Assembly: GCA_027482185.1 (NCBI GenBank)
Contig: JAIXWF010000022.1
Span: 248,001 to 312,000 of the forward strand
Length of the DNA: 64,000 nucleotides
Source: Opitutaceae bacterium
GTDB lineage: Bacteria > Verrucomicrobiota > Verrucomicrobiia > Opitutales > Opitutaceae
Direction of reading: 5' to 3'
A program made the position numbers and the translations under genes. Positions 2,669 through 60,212 of this stretch are shown here, piece by piece. Under the pieces are notes generated by a model. The model did not search any database and was not told the DNA's origin. It worked only from the letters and a program-made list of their open reading frames with translations. How positions within the stretch are numbered: the stretch's first letter is position 1; every line of letters begins with the position of its first letter.

Positions 2669-4165
2669 TCAACGGGCGGCCAGGGCCGGCTCGCGCCACG
2701 GATCCAGTTTCAGCGCGTGCCACGCGGCCAATTCCGCGGCGCGGCGCGCCGGGCTCCACCCGGCCGCTTCCGCGGTCCACGTGGCGATGTCCTCGAGCGG
2801 CAAGGCCTCGGCGCGGTGGTAATAGTGCCAGCCGCTGCGGCGGAGCAGGATGTCGTCGAGATGCTGTACCCACTCTTTTCCGACGTAGTGCCGGACCGCG
2901 GCGGCGGAAATCGGCGGCGGGATCAGACCGCTGTGGGCGTCGATTTCCGTCGGATCGAGCAGCGGTTCTTCGGCCGTCCGGCAGGGCGCCGCGGCGATCC
3001 CGAGGTGGCGGACCAATTGGTCGACGGCCTGTTCGGCCATCAGGCGGTAGGTCGTGAGTTTGCCGCCGGCGATGTCCCACCAGCCGGGCTGCGGGCTGCG
3101 GATTTGGTGGGCGCGGGAGATGTCGGAGGGCGAGCCGTCGGGATTCGCGATCAGCGGCCGCACGCCGGCCCAGGTGCTGACGATGTCGGCTTCGCGCAAC
3201 GCGATCTGCGGGAAGAACTCGTTGACGGTGCGGAGCACGTAGCGGACGTCGTCGGCTTCCGTGACCACCGCTTCGGGCGCGGCCCGGTAGTCGGTGTCCG
3301 TCGTGCCGATGATGATCCGTTCGCCCCACGGCAGGACGAACAGGATGCGTTTGCCTTCGGTGATCACGACGGCGGACGGCACCCGCAGGCGGGAGCGGTC
3401 GACGACGACGTGGATGCCCTTGCTGAGGCGCAGCTTCACAGCGCTGGGCCGGAGTTGGTCGGCCCAGGGGCCGGTGGCGTTGACGATCGTGCGGGCGCGG
3501 ACGGTGTGCGTGCCGGTGCCGGCGGCATCGGCAATGGTCGCGACCCAGCCGGCGGCGTCGGGCCGGGCGTCCGTGAGTTTCGCGTAATTCGCGAGCGCGG
3601 CGCCGTGGCGTTCGGCGGAGCGCAGATTGTCGAGCACGAGCCGGGCGTCGTTGGTCAGGGCATCGAAGTAGCGGACGGCGCCGGAAAGATTTTCGGCATC
3701 GAGGTCGGGCAGGAGCGCGCGGGTCTCCTCGCGGTTGAAGCCGCGGGACGGCTGGAAATTGCGGCCGCCGCAGAGCAGGTCGTAGAGCTTCACGCCGATG
3801 CGCAGCTGCCAAAGCGGGCGGCCCTCGCCGCGGTAAGCGGGAAACATGAAACCGAGCGGCTCGCCGAGGTGCGGCGCGATGCGGTGGATGGTTTTCTTTT
3901 CGACACTCGCCTCGTGCACGAGCCCGACGCGGCCCTGTTCCAGGTAGCGCAACCCGCCGTGCAGGAGCCGGCTCGAGCGGCTGCTCGTGCCGGCGGAAAA
4001 ATCCTGCATGTCGACGAGCCCGACGCGCAATCCGCGCAGGGCGGCATCGCGGGCGACGCCGCTGCCGACGATGCCGCCGCCGACCACGAGGAGGTCGAGC
4101 GGGGCCTCGGTCAGACGCGCGAACGCGTGGACGCGGGACGGGACAGGTTGGGCGGACGGCTTCAT
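2669..4165 (-). CDS. glpD: FAD-dependent glycerol-3-phosphate dehydrogenase
   Basis: A 498-residue GlpD/GlpA-type flavoprotein that oxidises sn-glycerol 3-phosphate to dihydroxyacetone phosphate and passes electrons to the quinone pool at the membrane. Visible signatures are the FAD-binding VVGGGIVGSGVARDAALRG near residue 28, the family motif SSRLLHGGLRYLEQG, IVNATGPWADQL, GTTDTDYR and IAGGKLTTYRLMAE, followed by a C-terminal helical domain. Length and motif order match complete family members. The start is 3 bp after the HAD phosphatase stop, so it is the sixth gene of the SorC-led operon. In this setting it would process the glycerol 3-phosphate released by the phosphodiesterase or imported by the transporter. 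Confidence 0.95.
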   Translation of the reverse strand: MKPSAQPVPSRVHAFARLTEAPLDLLVVGGGIVGSGVARDAALRGLRVGLVDMQDFSAGTSSRSSRLLHGGLRYLEQGRVGLVHEASVEKKTIHRIAPHLGEPLGFMFPAYRGEGRPLWQLRIGVKLYDLLCGGRNFQPSRGFNREETRALLPDLDAENLSGAVRYFDALTNDARLVLDNLRSAERHGAALANYAKLTDARPDAAGWVATIADAAGTGTHTVRARTIVNATGPWADQLRPSAVKLRLSKGIHVVVDRSRLRVPSAVVITEGKRILFVLPWGERIIIGTTDTDYRAAPEAVVTEADDVRYVLRTVNEFFPQIALREADIVSTWAGVRPLIANPDGSPSDISRAHQIRSPQPGWWDIAGGKLTTYRLMAEQAVDQLVRHLGIAAAPCRTAEEPLLDPTEIDAHSGLIPPPISAAAVRHYVGKEWVQHLDDILLRRSGWHYYHRAEALPLEDIATWTAEAAGWSPARRAAELAAWHALKLDPWREPALAAR

Positions 4166-7703: not shown

Positions 7704-8662
7704 CGGGCGGTTTTGGCCGCGGTCTTCGCCGCGTAGTAGGCCTTGAGCTCGCGCAGCGTCAGGTCGGGATGATCCGTGGCGAACGACATCACGCCGAGGT
7801 CGAGGAGTTTGCCGTAGACGGTCGGGTCGTCGGTGTAGGGAAAGGTTTGGAAGAGGACGCCGTGGGCGCGCAGGTCGCGGCCGACCTCGCGCAGGAAATC
7901 GTTGCGCAGGCGGAAGGGATTGTCGGCCGGGCTCGGGTCGGCGGGCGGGGCCCAGGGATCCGCGGTGACCTTGGGGTAGATGTGGATCTGGAGTTGGGTG
8001 ATGCCGGCGAATTTGGCCGCGCGGTGGGCCGCGAGGTCGCGGCTGAGCTCGGCTTCGTTGCCGTGCATCCACAGCAGGGTTTCCGATTCCGGCACGAGCG
8101 CCTTCCAGGCGCGCAATTCCTCCACCTTGCGGGAAGCGAGCACGATTTGTTTTTCGAGGCCGTACTTCCGGATCTCGGCGGCGAGGCGCGGAAACTCGAT
8201 GCTCTTGATGTCCATGTACAGATGCCGCTCCGGCCGGCCCCGCATGAGTTCGAAGATCGTCGCCATCGGCAGCACGCGGCGGCCCTTGAACTGCTCGCCC
8301 TTCCACGCGCCCACGTCGAGTTGCGCGACTTCGGCGTAGGTGAGATCCTTGACGCCCTTCTTCTTCAGTTCCGGCGACGCATCCTTCACCACGCGCGCGA
8401 AAGTGTTGTCGTGGAACGGCACGATCACGCCGTCCTTCGTCATGCGCAGGTCCGACTCCGGGTAGAGGCCCAGTTTCCAGGCGAGCTCGAAGGCTTCCAC
8501 GGTGTTTTCTTCCGCGAGGTAGCCCGCGCCGCGGTGGCCCTGGACGATGACGCGTTCCAGCGGGATGTGGTCGGTGATGTTCCATTCCGGCGTCGCCGCG
8601 GGGGCGACGGCGGCCGCGGCGGCGAGCGCCAGCAGGAACCGGACGGGGTCGGGGACTTTCAT
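7700..8662 (-). CDS. secreted glycerophosphodiester phosphodiesterase
   Basis: A 320-residue GlpQ/UgpQ-type GDPD. The protein begins with a signal peptide (MKVPDPVRFLLALAAAAAV, then APAATPEW), so it probably acts in the periplasm. The catalytic core is seen in QGHRGAGYLAEENTVEAF (HRG...EENT), ESDLRMTKDGVIVPFHD with the second catalytic histidine, and LYMDIKS. These form the TIM barrel and calcium site of the family. It hydrolyses deacylated phospholipids to glycerol phosphate plus an alcohol. The ATG at 8662 overlaps the regulator stop by 4 bp. Its location just before the glycerol-1-phosphate dehydrogenase and transporter makes it the likely supplier of their substrate. Confidence 0.92.
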   Translation of the reverse strand: MKVPDPVRFLLALAAAAAVAPAATPEWNITDHIPLERVIVQGHRGAGYLAEENTVEAFELAWKLGLYPESDLRMTKDGVIVPFHDNTFARVVKDASPELKKKGVKDLTYAEVAQLDVGAWKGEQFKGRRVLPMATIFELMRGRPERHLYMDIKSIEFPRLAAEIRKYGLEKQIVLASRKVEELRAWKALVPESETLLWMHGNEAELSRDLAAHRAAKFAGITQLQIHIYPKVTADPWAPPADPSPADNPFRLRNDFLREVGRDLRAHGVLFQTFPYTDDPTVYGKLLDLGVMSFATDHPDLTLRELKAYYAAKTAAKTAR

Positions 8663-57637: not shown

Positions 57638-57652
57638 GCGCGCGCCGCGCGC

Positions 57653-57751
57653 GGTTGAAAGTTGAAAGGTGAAGGTTGAAGGAACGGACCTGTGCCGGCG
57701 GTCCCGGTACGGCGCTCTCAGCGTTCAATTTTCAACTTGGACCTTTCAACC
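57653..57751. repeat. GTTGAAAG-type inverted-repeat cassette (copy 3)
   Basis: The left arm 57653-57681 (ggttgaaagttgaaaggtga and on) faces the right arm 57723-57751. The outermost ten bases, CGGTTGAAAG at 57652-57661 and CTTTCAACCG at 57743-57752, are perfect complements. It is the best preserved of the three copies and lies between two convergent genes. Confidence 0.7.
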
Positions 57752-57775
57752 GCCGGGTGCCGCAACGGCAACCGG

Positions 57776-58420
57776 CTAACGGCGCAAAATCGCGCGGATC
57801 GGGGAACCGTCGCCGCCGCGGAGCTTGAGCGGCAGGGCGATCAATTCGTAGACGCCGGCTTCGACGTCGCGGAGGTCGAGGCTTTCGATGATCAGGATCC
57901 CGGCGTCGTCGAGCAGGTGGTGGATCGCCATGTCCTTGTTGTTGAGTTCGTCGACCGAGGGCAGGTCGAGGCCGATGAGTTTCACACCGCGGGCGGCGAG
58001 CCACGCGGGCAGGGCGCGATCGAGCAGGGGCCACACGGTGGGAAAGGTCGTGAGGTCCGACCACGCGTCGGTGCGGAACAGGATCCGCGGCACGGCGGCG
58101 AGATCGGCGTCGGTGAGACCGTGGAAGAGCGCCGGCGTGAACGTCGGGTGGCCGCGCGCATCGATCACGCGGGCGGGGCCGACATAGAGCGAAAGGTCGA
58201 GTTGGTCGGTCGTGAGCCCGCGGGAATTGTAGTGGAACGGGGCGTCGAGGTGCGTGCCGTTGTGGACGCTGCAGGAGAGCCGGCCGACGTTGCAGGCGGC
58301 GCCCGCCGCCATGCTGGCCGTGAGGTCGAGGGCCGTCGCGCTGTCGCCGGGCCAATGCGGGGACCCCGTGTAGAGCGGACGGGAAATGTCGATGATCCGG
58401 TAGTTCGGAGGGGAATTCAT
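57776..58420 (-). CDS. kynB: kynurenine formamidase (cyclase family)
   Basis: A 214-residue metal-dependent hydrolase that turns N-formylkynurenine into kynurenine in tryptophan breakdown. The signature is SCSVHNGTHLDAPFHYNSRG (HxGTHxDAPxH), with YRIIDISRPLYTGSPHWPGD at the N-terminus and GIDLPSVD-like LIGLDLPSVDELNNKDMAIH near the C-terminus. I start it at the ATG at 58420. The frame stays open upstream with no stop and joins the GxxExxY gene, so a 360-residue fusion could also be made. Kynureninase lies next on the same strand beyond the GxxExxY unit, so the two kyn genes were probably adjacent before an insertion. Confidence 0.92.
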   Translation of the reverse strand: MNSPPNYRIIDISRPLYTGSPHWPGDSATALDLTASMAAGAACNVGRLSCSVHNGTHLDAPFHYNSRGLTTDQLDLSLYVGPARVIDARGHPTFTPALFHGLTDADLAAVPRILFRTDAWSDLTTFPTVWPLLDRALPAWLAARGVKLIGLDLPSVDELNNKDMAIHHLLDDAGILIIESLDLRDVEAGVYELIALPLKLRGGDGSPIRAILRR

Positions 58421-58858
58421 GGCAGGGAGCGACGGGACAGGATGGACGGGACGGGCGGAGACAGGATGGACAGGACGGTAGTGGGCGTGGCGGTGAGGGT
58501 GCTTGCGCTTGAATTCAAGCCGGGCACCGCCGAATCCCAAGAGGAGGCCGACTTCGATTCCGGTGACCGTGAGATAGTTCACCGTTTGTACCTCGTGCGC
58601 AAGTGTCAGCGCGGACGAAGCCTTCAGCTCGATGACGACTTGCGACTCAACCAACAGGTCCGGAATAAATTCTCCCACGACAATCTGATCGTAGGTTACG
58701 CTTAGCTTTGCGTCGGATTCGGCCCGAAGTCTGGATCGCGCCAGTTCCACTTGCAGTGCCCGACGATACACGGACTCCAGGAACCCCGGCCCCAGCTTCT
58801 TGTGCACGGCGATGGCAGCCCCGATGATTCGCGCGGTCAGGTCGGCATGGTTCTCCAT
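58421..58858 (-). CDS. GxxExxY-family PD-(D/E)XK protein, stop lost, in frame with kynB
   Basis: The first 118 or so residues match the GxxExxY family (PDDEXK_3 fold): GPGFLESVYRRALQVEL carries Gly25, Glu28 and Tyr31, and the nuclease-type core is Asp67 in EFIPDLLV plus Glu77-Leu-Lys79 in VIELKA. VNYLTVTGIEVGLLLGFG and LEFKRK form the usual end. Members normally stop here. In this copy translation continues through the flanking repeat (HYRPVHPVSARPVHP) and straight into kynB with no stop codon. The start at 58858 lies 3 bp from a 16-bp inverted repeat whose partner is inside the 3' end. All predicted active-site residues are intact. The biological role of the family is unknown. Confidence 0.85.
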
Positions 58859-58902
58859 GCATCCTGTCCATCCTGTCCTCCGGACATCCTGTAAATCCTG
58901 TC
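58431..58902. mobile_element. GxxExxY cassette bounded by GACAGGATG inverted repeats
   Basis: gacaggatggacagga at 58460-58475 and its exact complement at 58862-58877 form a 16-bp perfect inverted repeat around the GxxExxY gene. Further degenerate units lie outside (gacgggacaggatggacggg from 58431, and ggacatcctgtaaatcctgtcc at 58882-58903). The layout of gene plus facing arms is like an insertion sequence, but the only gene inside is a PD-(D/E)XK-type protein and I see no target-site duplication. The unit sits between kynU and kynB. Confidence 0.5.
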
Positions 58903-58928
58903 CTCACCCCGAATCCCGTCCGTTCGTC

Positions 58929-60212
58929 CTAAGGCACCAGTCCCGGATCGCGGCCCCACGCTTCGTACGCCCGCTTTTCCATGATCTCCCTCAGGCGCGA
59001 GATTGCCTCCGCGCAATCGGCAAAGCGCGTGTAGAGCGGCGAGGGCGCGAGGCGGATGAGGTCGGGCCCGCGGAAGTCGGGCACCACGCCGGCCGCTTTC
59101 AGGGCCTGGCAGATCCGCGCGGCGTCGGGGTGCGCCAGCGCGAGGTGGCCGCCGCGCGCCAAATGGCCACGCGGGGTCGCGACGGTAAACCCGAAGTCCC
59201 CGAGCTCGGCCTCGATCCGCGCGAGGAGGAAATCCGTCAACGCGAGCGACTTTTCCCGCAATGCCGCCGCGCCGCCCGCGGCCGCGATCAGTTCCAGCGA
59301 ACCGAGCAGCGGCGCAAGCGCGAGGATCGGCGGGGTGCCGATGTGCAGGGCCGCGGCGCCGTCCGCGGGTTCGTGCCGCGGGGCCATGGCGAATCTCCGG
59401 TCCGGCCGCACGCCCCACCAGCCGGCGAGGCCGGGGGCGCGCCCGTGGTGCTTGGAATTCAGATACAGGCCGCCGGCGGCGCCGGGGCCGGCGTTGAGCC
59501 ATTTGTAGGTGCACCAGAAGGCGAAATCGACGCCGTCGCGGTCGAATGCATGCGGCACGGCGCCGATGCTGTGGGAGCAATCGAAGCCGACCAAAATGCC
59601 GCGTTCGTGCGCTTTGCGCGTGAGGGTCGCGACATCGAGCAATTGCCCGCTGGTGAACACGACCGCGGGCAGCACCGCGAGTTGCACGTCGTCGGTGAAG
59701 GCCGCGAGGAGGTCGTCGAGCCGCAACACGCGGCCGTCGCGCGACGGGATCAGCCGCAGGTGTTGCGCCGGATCAAGGCCGCGCAGCCGCAGGTGGCTTT
59801 GCAGGGCGTAGGCATCGGAGGCGAAGTTGAGGACGTCGCCGACGATGACGCGACGCCCCGGCCGGGCCGGTTCGAAGAGCGTCGCGAGCAACTGGTGCAG
59901 GTTGGCCGTGGTCTGGCCCGTGATCGCGACCGACGAAGGGTCGGCGCCGACCAACGGCGCGAGCGCGGCGGCCGCGCGGTCGGCCAGCGTGAGCCAGGCG
60001 GGATCCGCCCCGGTCCAGCCGTCGATCCCGAGCGTGCGCCATTGTTCGACGGCGCGGAGCAAGGTGGCCTCGGCGCGGCGGGACAGCAGCCCGAGCGAGT
60101 TGCCGTCGAGGTAGAGGCGTCCGGCGGGCAGGAAGAATTCGTCGCGCAGCGGCGCCAGCGGATCGGCCCGGTCGAGAGCGGCGGCGGAGAGGGCGGGGGC
60201 GCAGGCGGACAT
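58929..60212 (-). CDS. kynU: kynureninase
   Basis: A 427-residue pyridoxal-phosphate enzyme that splits kynurenine into anthranilate and alanine. Family signatures are the opening PLAPLRDEFFLPAGRLYLDG then NSLG, AITGQTTANLHQLLATLF, LVGFDCSHSIGAVPHAFD, the PLP lysine in FAFWCTYKWLNAGPGA, and GWWGVRPDRRFAM. Length and motif order match complete kynureninases. The start is the ATG at 60212. The kynB gene lies downstream beyond the GxxExxY unit; tryptophan dioxygenase is not in the window. The neighbouring gene on the other strand starts about 100 bp away. Confidence 0.96.
   Translation of the reverse strand: MSACAPALSAAALDRADPLAPLRDEFFLPAGRLYLDGNSLGLLSRRAEATLLRAVEQWRTLGIDGWTGADPAWLTLADRAAAALAPLVGADPSSVAITGQTTANLHQLLATLFEPARPGRRVIVGDVLNFASDAYALQSHLRLRGLDPAQHLRLIPSRDGRVLRLDDLLAAFTDDVQLAVLPAVVFTSGQLLDVATLTRKAHERGILVGFDCSHSIGAVPHAFDRDGVDFAFWCTYKWLNAGPGAAGGLYLNSKHHGRAPGLAGWWGVRPDRRFAMAPRHEPADGAAALHIGTPPILALAPLLGSLELIAAAGGAAALREKSLALTDFLLARIEAELGDFGFTVATPRGHLARGGHLALAHPDAARICQALKAAGVVPDFRGPDLIRLAPSPLYTRFADCAEAISRLREIMEKRAYEAWGRDPGLVP

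Follow-up and report, generated by a model that had tools for sequence, protein, structure and literature searches.

Between kynU and kynB in a stretch of 64,000 nucleotides from an Opitutaceae bacterium (here called the window; G000:C19:248001-312000, from a host genome, G000, of 6.43 Mb in 24 contigs) lies a gene of the GxxExxY family enclosed by two inverted arms, each an array of one short word. On balance we consider it moderately probable that this locus is one copy of a minimal mobile element, slow to move and passed on mainly by vertical descent, with a nuclease that reads the word arrays of its own element. Gene and word-bearing arms form one unit, genomes differ in where the unit is inserted, copies lacking the gene are common in the host genome, the arm words follow the clades of the protein, and the window copy is under purifying selection. 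The case for an element is strong; the cutting step is its weak link.

The nuclease gene and its inverted arms

An earlier note on this DNA had described a GxxExxY gene without a stop codon, in frame into kynB, which splits kynU from kynB and is bracketed by a perfect 16-bp inverted repeat with outer degenerate units, and each part of that description is borne out. The perfect pair GACAGGATGGACAGGA occupies 58460-58475 (plus strand) and 58862-58877 (minus strand), with degenerate 16-mer copies outside it at 58436-58451 (1 mismatch) and 58887-58902 (2 mismatches). At up to 3 mismatches the whole window holds five matches, the fifth at 3330, away from the nuclease locus; 0.30 were expected and none of 100 shuffles reached five. 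Inverted repeat search and pattern scan place these repeats in an upstream arm on the kynU side (58860..58903), made of two pairs of GACAGGAT-like words and followed immediately by the nuclease start codon, and a downstream arm on the kynB side (58435..58478), made of two pairs of GACAGGATG-like words. A search of the window against Rfam at the gathering threshold gave no match.

One minus-strand frame of 360 codons in the list of open reading frames (ORFs; 57776..58858) holds the nuclease, an arm-encoded linker, RPVHPVSARPVHPVPSLPA, and kynB. Residues 7-119 and 6-118 match TIGR04256 and PF13366 (58500..58858, minus strand; hmmscan E for PF13366/TIGR04256 3.9e-35 and 2.3e-36), and the scores lie above the curated cut-offs (124.7 bits against 35 for TIGR04256, 121.2 against 22 for PDDEXK_3, PF13366). 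Residues 154-360 and 156-303 match the arylformamidase families TIGR03035 and PF04199 and correspond to kynB (57776..58420, minus strand; TIGR03035 E 6.4e-56, 189.6 bits, under the curated cut-off of 223.05), which has an ATG of its own at 58418-58420. At E <= 0.001 the Pfam matches in this ORF were PDDEXK_3 and Cyclase only, with no HUH Y1 transposase domain, and no DDE transposase family was found among its profile matches.

The GxxExxY protein is a predicted RecB/Cas4-like PD-(D/E)XK nuclease. We take the pattern of that group to be a Glu in the first helices, then D, ExK and QxxxY, and the residues that correspond to it (E28, D67, E77, K79, Q91 and Y95) are all invariant across 23 sequences. 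The AlphaFold2 model of the domain has a pLDDT of 94.8, and a sequence search of the PDB with the nuclease gave no match at E up to 1. Between G000 and its sister genome G006 the nuclease has a dN of 0.051 and a dS of 0.685 (NG86; 0.065 and 0.568 by YN00), and from this low dN relative to dS it follows that the window copy is under purifying selection; the same comparison gives 0.041 and 0.319 for kynU and 0.026 and 0.265 for kynB. The nuclease dS is about twice that of either neighbour.

Arms are general to the GxxExxY family and are not tied to the repeat sequence of the window. We assembled 193 GxxExxY loci, comprising 4 from the own genome, 109 from relatives and 80 from named genomes; the own and relative loci are 113 of 169 matches (summed from the table), taken by their place in the list and not randomly, and in five of the 193 the matched stretch contains a stop, which was no ground for exclusion. 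For the 184 loci with enough flank, the upstream 200 nt were locally aligned to the reverse complement of the downstream 200 nt. The score was at least 18 in 113/184 and at least 14 in 145/184, against 1.5% and 5.8% when flanks of loci from different genomes were paired, and 4/176 and 7/176 for flanks displaced by 200-400 bp. The direct orientation gave 33/184 and 36/184 at the same two thresholds. With 400-nt flanks, 19 of 29 GxxExxY loci reached a score of 18 as against 0 of 21 control genes; this comparison used 29 of 33 loci, four near contig ends being dropped, and as controls it took genes that the KynU search had matched weakly (21 of 22 loci, from 23 such hits with a locus). Among the named genomes, where 73 of 80 loci were used and 7 with short flanks dropped, 27/73 scored at or above the 99th percentile of their own null, as did 10/73 in direct orientation. 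By their record titles the 27 belong to Acidobacteriota, Verrucomicrobiota, Pseudomonadota, Bacteroidota, Chloroflexota, Planctomycetota and Cyanobacteriota, with one Deferrisomatales record. The nearest of the named loci are those of Didemnitutus and Opitutus, in line with a host from Opitutaceae. The earlier expectation that inverted arms would recur at other GxxExxY genes is therefore upheld for the arms, but the words are usually other than GACAGGATG. Tandem copies also occur: the flanks of those 33 loci are strongly similar in direct orientation, and some frames have two consecutive GxxExxY matches (G018:C279, G031:C1).

Insertion sites and gene-less copies

The kynU-like gene (58929..60212, minus strand; 427 aa), named by its context, made it possible to compare the junction between genomes. 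A search of 57 genomes (own and relatives) with the KynU-like protein found a close homologue, of at least 71% identity, in seven. In five of these (G003, G008, G009, G011 and G026) kynU is followed directly by kynB, the start of which lies only a few tens of bases past the kynU stop; in G000 and G006 the nuclease and its arms stand between the two. These five are the empty junctions that the earlier note had proposed to look for in relatives. A second gene-bearing element, G006:C71, has arms of CGCTGAT words, and the matching place in the host genome (G000:C16:289487-289526) is empty. With flanks 91-93% identical, the two differ at the junction by about 45 bp of target, and comparison with G000 showed no target duplication there. 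On our reading the arm of this element gives the neighbouring gene a new start codon, as the window arm precedes the start of kynB. Separately, L261 (in G028) and L280 (in G033) share an insertion place, with proteins only 0.37 identical and different words (CACGGAG and CACAGAT), and are perhaps two independent insertions at one site.

Copies of the arms greatly outnumber the genes. The window 16-mer, at up to 1 mismatch, occurs 71 times in G000 as against 4 times for a reversed control pattern; where the surroundings were read many copies form inverted pairs and others are single-sided. Since G000 has only four GxxExxY genes, nearly all of these copies are gene-less. Matches to the array pattern GACAGGANNGACAGGA number 66 in G000, 29 in G006, 23 in G005, 19 in G013 and 16 in G004, with at most 2 in each of the other 52 genomes, and among the matches listed, which run downward from the best, a full-length nuclease at least 60% identical to that of the window was found in three genomes (G000, G006 and G005) and in none of the remaining 54. 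Arrays of CACGAAA/CACGGAA reach 147 copies (G031) and 120 (G016), with reversed-pattern controls at 0-4 except in G043. In a dozen or more of the 57 genomes there are more arrays of these three words than GxxExxY genes, and many of the arrays are compact pairs, two words in one orientation followed by two in the other ('++ --'). A one-to-one relation between resident word and array count for CACGAAA against CACGGAA was considered and rejected: the own word is the commoner in 6 of 7 resident genomes, G004 being the exception, and the margin is often narrow (25 against 24 in G012, 10 against 9 in G025).

Fourteen unique paired gene-less copies were read in G000, reduced from 29 rows in which most copies had been counted twice. 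The downstream arm of the window is nearer to the L-type than to the R-type end of these copies (p 0.0098), and the upstream arm showed no difference between the two end types (p 0.10). Some other arrangements were also met with. In L206 (G000:C19:700001-720000) four single-sided GACAGGA arms, at 8355, 11369, 14482 and 17459, lie in the same orientation at intervals of about 3 kb, none having a partner within 200 bp. A 77-bp stretch of G000 (L204:10545-10634) is missing from G006; its right part matches four other places of G006 at 81-90%, and it is another dispersed repeat. The reversed control pattern AAGGCACN{1,3}AAGGCAC has 363 matches in G043, where a locus of another gene family (23S_rRNA_IVP, L096) has GGCACAAA arms; this may be another instance of a resident gene whose word recurs in arrays throughout its genome.

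The words of the arms

The arms consist of short arrays of one 7-nt word, mostly CRCNRAN, successive words starting 8-10 nt apart in 178 of the 203 steps counted. Over 315 pairs of words from opposite arms, positions 1, 2, 3, 5, 6 and 7 agree at 94-100% and position 4 at 72%, the choice of aligned stretches favouring agreement. The word is largely constant within an element and differs by protein clade (CRCRRAG, CRCRRAT, CRCGRAA, CRCTRAT; GACAGGATG in the window copy); L069, the nearest neighbour of the window copy in the clustering, has CGCAGAT words. Across 122 of the 124 loci with a score of at least 16, two with stops being left out, word similarity tracks protein identity (Mantel r 0.446, reached by 0 of 999 permutations), and the link persists if the shuffling of labels is confined to single genomes (r 0.443, against a maximum of 0.267 in 999).

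Part of this link is to be expected since the gene and its arms travel together. Two further observations speak for selection on the words themselves. One is that loci from different phyla, their proteins about 51-62% identical to the query, have retained the CRCRRAG word; the other is that at fixed insertion sites the majority of words in both arms have shifted in concert, giving CACGAAA, CACGGAA and CGCGAAT within a group of 8 loci, and CACTGAT and CACTAAT within a group of 6. These coordinated changes were read by eye with no null, some words in each group departing from the majority, and could alternatively come from gene conversion or from replacement of the element at the same site. A mutual-information ranking of the residues that might set the word was inseparable from shared ancestry and was not used.

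Known systems and alternative explanations

RAYTs (TnpA-REP) are small HUH Y1 enzymes whose genes have inverted flanks, with many gene-less REP/REPIN copies, long vertical inheritance and rarity on plasmids and phages. The present system resembles them in its one small enzyme gene within inverted flanks, its many gene-less copies (66 array matches in G000), its long vertical inheritance and its near absence from plasmids and phages; it differs in that the enzyme is a predicted RecB/Cas4-like PD-(D/E)XK nuclease rather than an HUH Y1 protein and the arms are arrays of 7-nt words rather than single palindromes. It could therefore work in the manner of RAYT-REPIN, but with its unrelated enzyme it does not belong to that group. 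When the earlier note cast GxxExxY as a mobilising enzyme comparable to Y1 proteins acting on REP sequences, the analogy was well chosen, given the gene-less arrays, the vertical inheritance and the scarcity on plasmids and phages; mobilisation by the nuclease itself is putative. Insertion sequences and miniature inverted-repeat transposable elements (MITEs) share terminal inverted sequences, gene-bearing and gene-less copies and empty sites with it, but here no transposase family was matched, no consistent target duplication was found and the arms are of degenerate words. Unlike other nucleases of the Cas4/RecB/lambda-exonuclease families, this one is a stand-alone gene within its own repeat arms, between kynU and kynB.

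The proposed element would be a compact unit of a single RecB/Cas4-like PD-(D/E)XK nuclease gene and tight inverted arms, each an array of one word. Its nuclease would bind the terminal arrays, left and right, of gene-less copies as well as of its own, and would cut there, and host repair might occasionally copy or move element DNA elsewhere, leaving no consistent target duplication. At this locus the element would have landed at the 5' end of kynB and lost its stop codon, giving the open nuclease-KynB frame now present in three species. Movement would be rare, with many copies inherited in place.

Several observations weigh against this account. Loci below a score of 18 number 71/184, and 39/184 are below 14. 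Among 102 pairs of loci with more than 70% protein identity, 58 occupy one and the same place. Part of the link between word and protein would follow simply from arms and gene being inherited together. G004 and G013 are rich in GACAGGA arrays and have no nuclease at least 60% identical among the matches listed; counts of CACGAAA and CACGGAA follow the resident word only loosely, G004 being opposite, and G013, G016 and G031 are rich in arrays with no resident of that word among the loci fetched. G000 and G006 share the places of three of the four gene-less copies read in one region, and the single difference, in a tandem pair, may be recombination. The arms in G005 are weak (score 14.0), its upstream arm is like neither gene-less end, and the kynB tree does not group G005 with G000 and G006 (support 0.62). 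The earlier note had also proposed to look for duplications of 3-10 bp outside the arms. At the edges of 113 gene-bearing loci, those of at least 6 nt showed no excess (0.06 against 0.04) and 5-nt matches a modest one (about 27/113; 0.24 against 0.14 expected, p 0.004), to which shared base composition may add, as the null pairs edges of different loci; 5-nt matches were found at 0/26 gene-less edges (0.00 against 0.13). Element ends are only roughly known.

Much of the same evidence bears on a resident host unit, that is, a regulator, repair or defence nuclease and its sites, with little spread of its own and dispersed by recombination and transfer, which we regard as unlikely. It would be consistent with the purifying selection on the window copy, with thirteen same-place groups that cover 52/110 loci at protein identities down to 0.49-0.52 in the two largest, and with the finding of relatives of the L078 protein in only 8 of 72,556 plasmids and 0 of 50,697 phages. 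It is less easily reconciled with the 44/102 close pairs that are at different places, with similar copies at different places within one genome (96% identical in G043, about 2 kb apart on one contig; 83% in G009, one with a stop in frame), with the empty sites at kynU-kynB and for G006:C71, and with up to 147 arrays of one word per genome. For the mobile-element reading, the same-place and different-place pairs, the same-place groups, the rarity on plasmids and phages and the stable gene-less copies mean that the elements do move, but rarely, and are largely inherited in place.

The other small family with this architecture raises the question of RNA. Genes of 23S_rRNA_IVP (PF05635, a four-helix bundle) in the same genomes have inverted arrays at a score of at least 18 in 20/28 loci with 400-nt flanks and 19/28 with 200-nt flanks (28 of 30 loci used). 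The words of their arms recur with a 7-nt period (autocorrelation 0.73 at 7 nt, 0.72 at 14 nt), the best period being 7 in 34/38 arms and 8 in 4/38, unlike the GxxExxY arms. The 23S intervening sequence of Coxiella, described as a selfish element, combines a terminal stem of 28 bp with an S23p ORF (PMC4990558); it may be a special case of the IVP word-array class. Small ORFs between terminal inverted repeats are thus common to both systems (PMC4990558), but here the ORF encodes a predicted nuclease, the words are 8-10 nt apart as against period 7 in IVP arms, and the window element lies between two protein genes, kynU and kynB, and not within 23S rRNA. The arms might accordingly act as RNA, the transcript folding into a long processed stem with the protein as an RNA-processing or RNA-binding partner. 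The inverted arms around a small ORF, the Coxiella stem and the four-helix-bundle genes would all suit such a role, as would an excess of G-U-tolerant changes on the antisense over the sense strand in spacer and other columns (115 against 70, p 0.001), which is unexplained. In the word columns, however, such changes are enriched on neither strand (49 against 44, p 0.68), word position 4 is mismatched in 28% of the 315 word pairs, and in the 14 gene-less copies the two arms of one copy resemble each other no more than arms of different copies do (14.9 against 14.8), and we think this explanation quite improbable.

As to the open frame, it continues into kynB in G006 (358 aa) and G005 as well, in three species including G000. 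The linker, read from translations, is 19 residues in G000 and 17 in G006; the G005 nuclease is 60% identical to that of the window, with no kynU before it. Up to the end of the right arm a stop is absent in only 4/113 armed loci, the window's included, which makes stop loss a peculiarity of this lineage and not of the family. A nuclease-formamidase fusion protein could be made from the frame; of the read-through product once proposed, the frame itself is real and kept in three species, the protein being conjectural. That the fusion is a selected, domesticated chimera with the arms left over is very unlikely: the frame stays open through arms of differing linker length in all three species and stop loss is rare among armed loci, but an open frame is cheap because the period-9 word array holds no stop in this frame, the kynB ATG is retained in G000 and G006, and GACAGGA arrays remain numerous throughout the genomes of G000, G006 and G005.

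Returning to the mobile element, it is possible, though we hold this only tentatively, that GxxExxY in several phyla represents an undescribed class of elements in which a clade-specific 7-nt inverted address co-evolves with the nuclease and licenses gene-less copies, with IVP genes as a parallel system whose address has a 7-nt period, the 23S intervening sequences being the visible tip of a class of elements spread through whole genomes; the gene-less copies behind this suggestion were counted in the 57 genomes of the host and its relatives. A literature search found no title on such elements and no match for five arm-word strings, in a set outside which most subscription papers lie. GxxExxY appears as an incidental domain name in PMC8934634 and is also named in PMC12085832, and PF13366 in PMC9756366. 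No function is known for the widespread GxxExxY family, and the tie between gene, repeat and clade makes it a directly testable system for binding and cutting, with a naturally occurring set of small nucleases in which the target word changes as the protein does. If true, it would explain many short inverted repeats in the genus concerned and in related genomes, possibly also in other phyla with similar GxxExxY arms, and the 23S rRNA intervening sequences would fall into a wider class of elements. In the window itself, just past kynB at 57651-57753, there is an inverted pair of GTTGAAAG-like words with 30-nt arms, 80% complementary, which resembles an element of the four-helix-bundle (IVP) type that lacks its gene.
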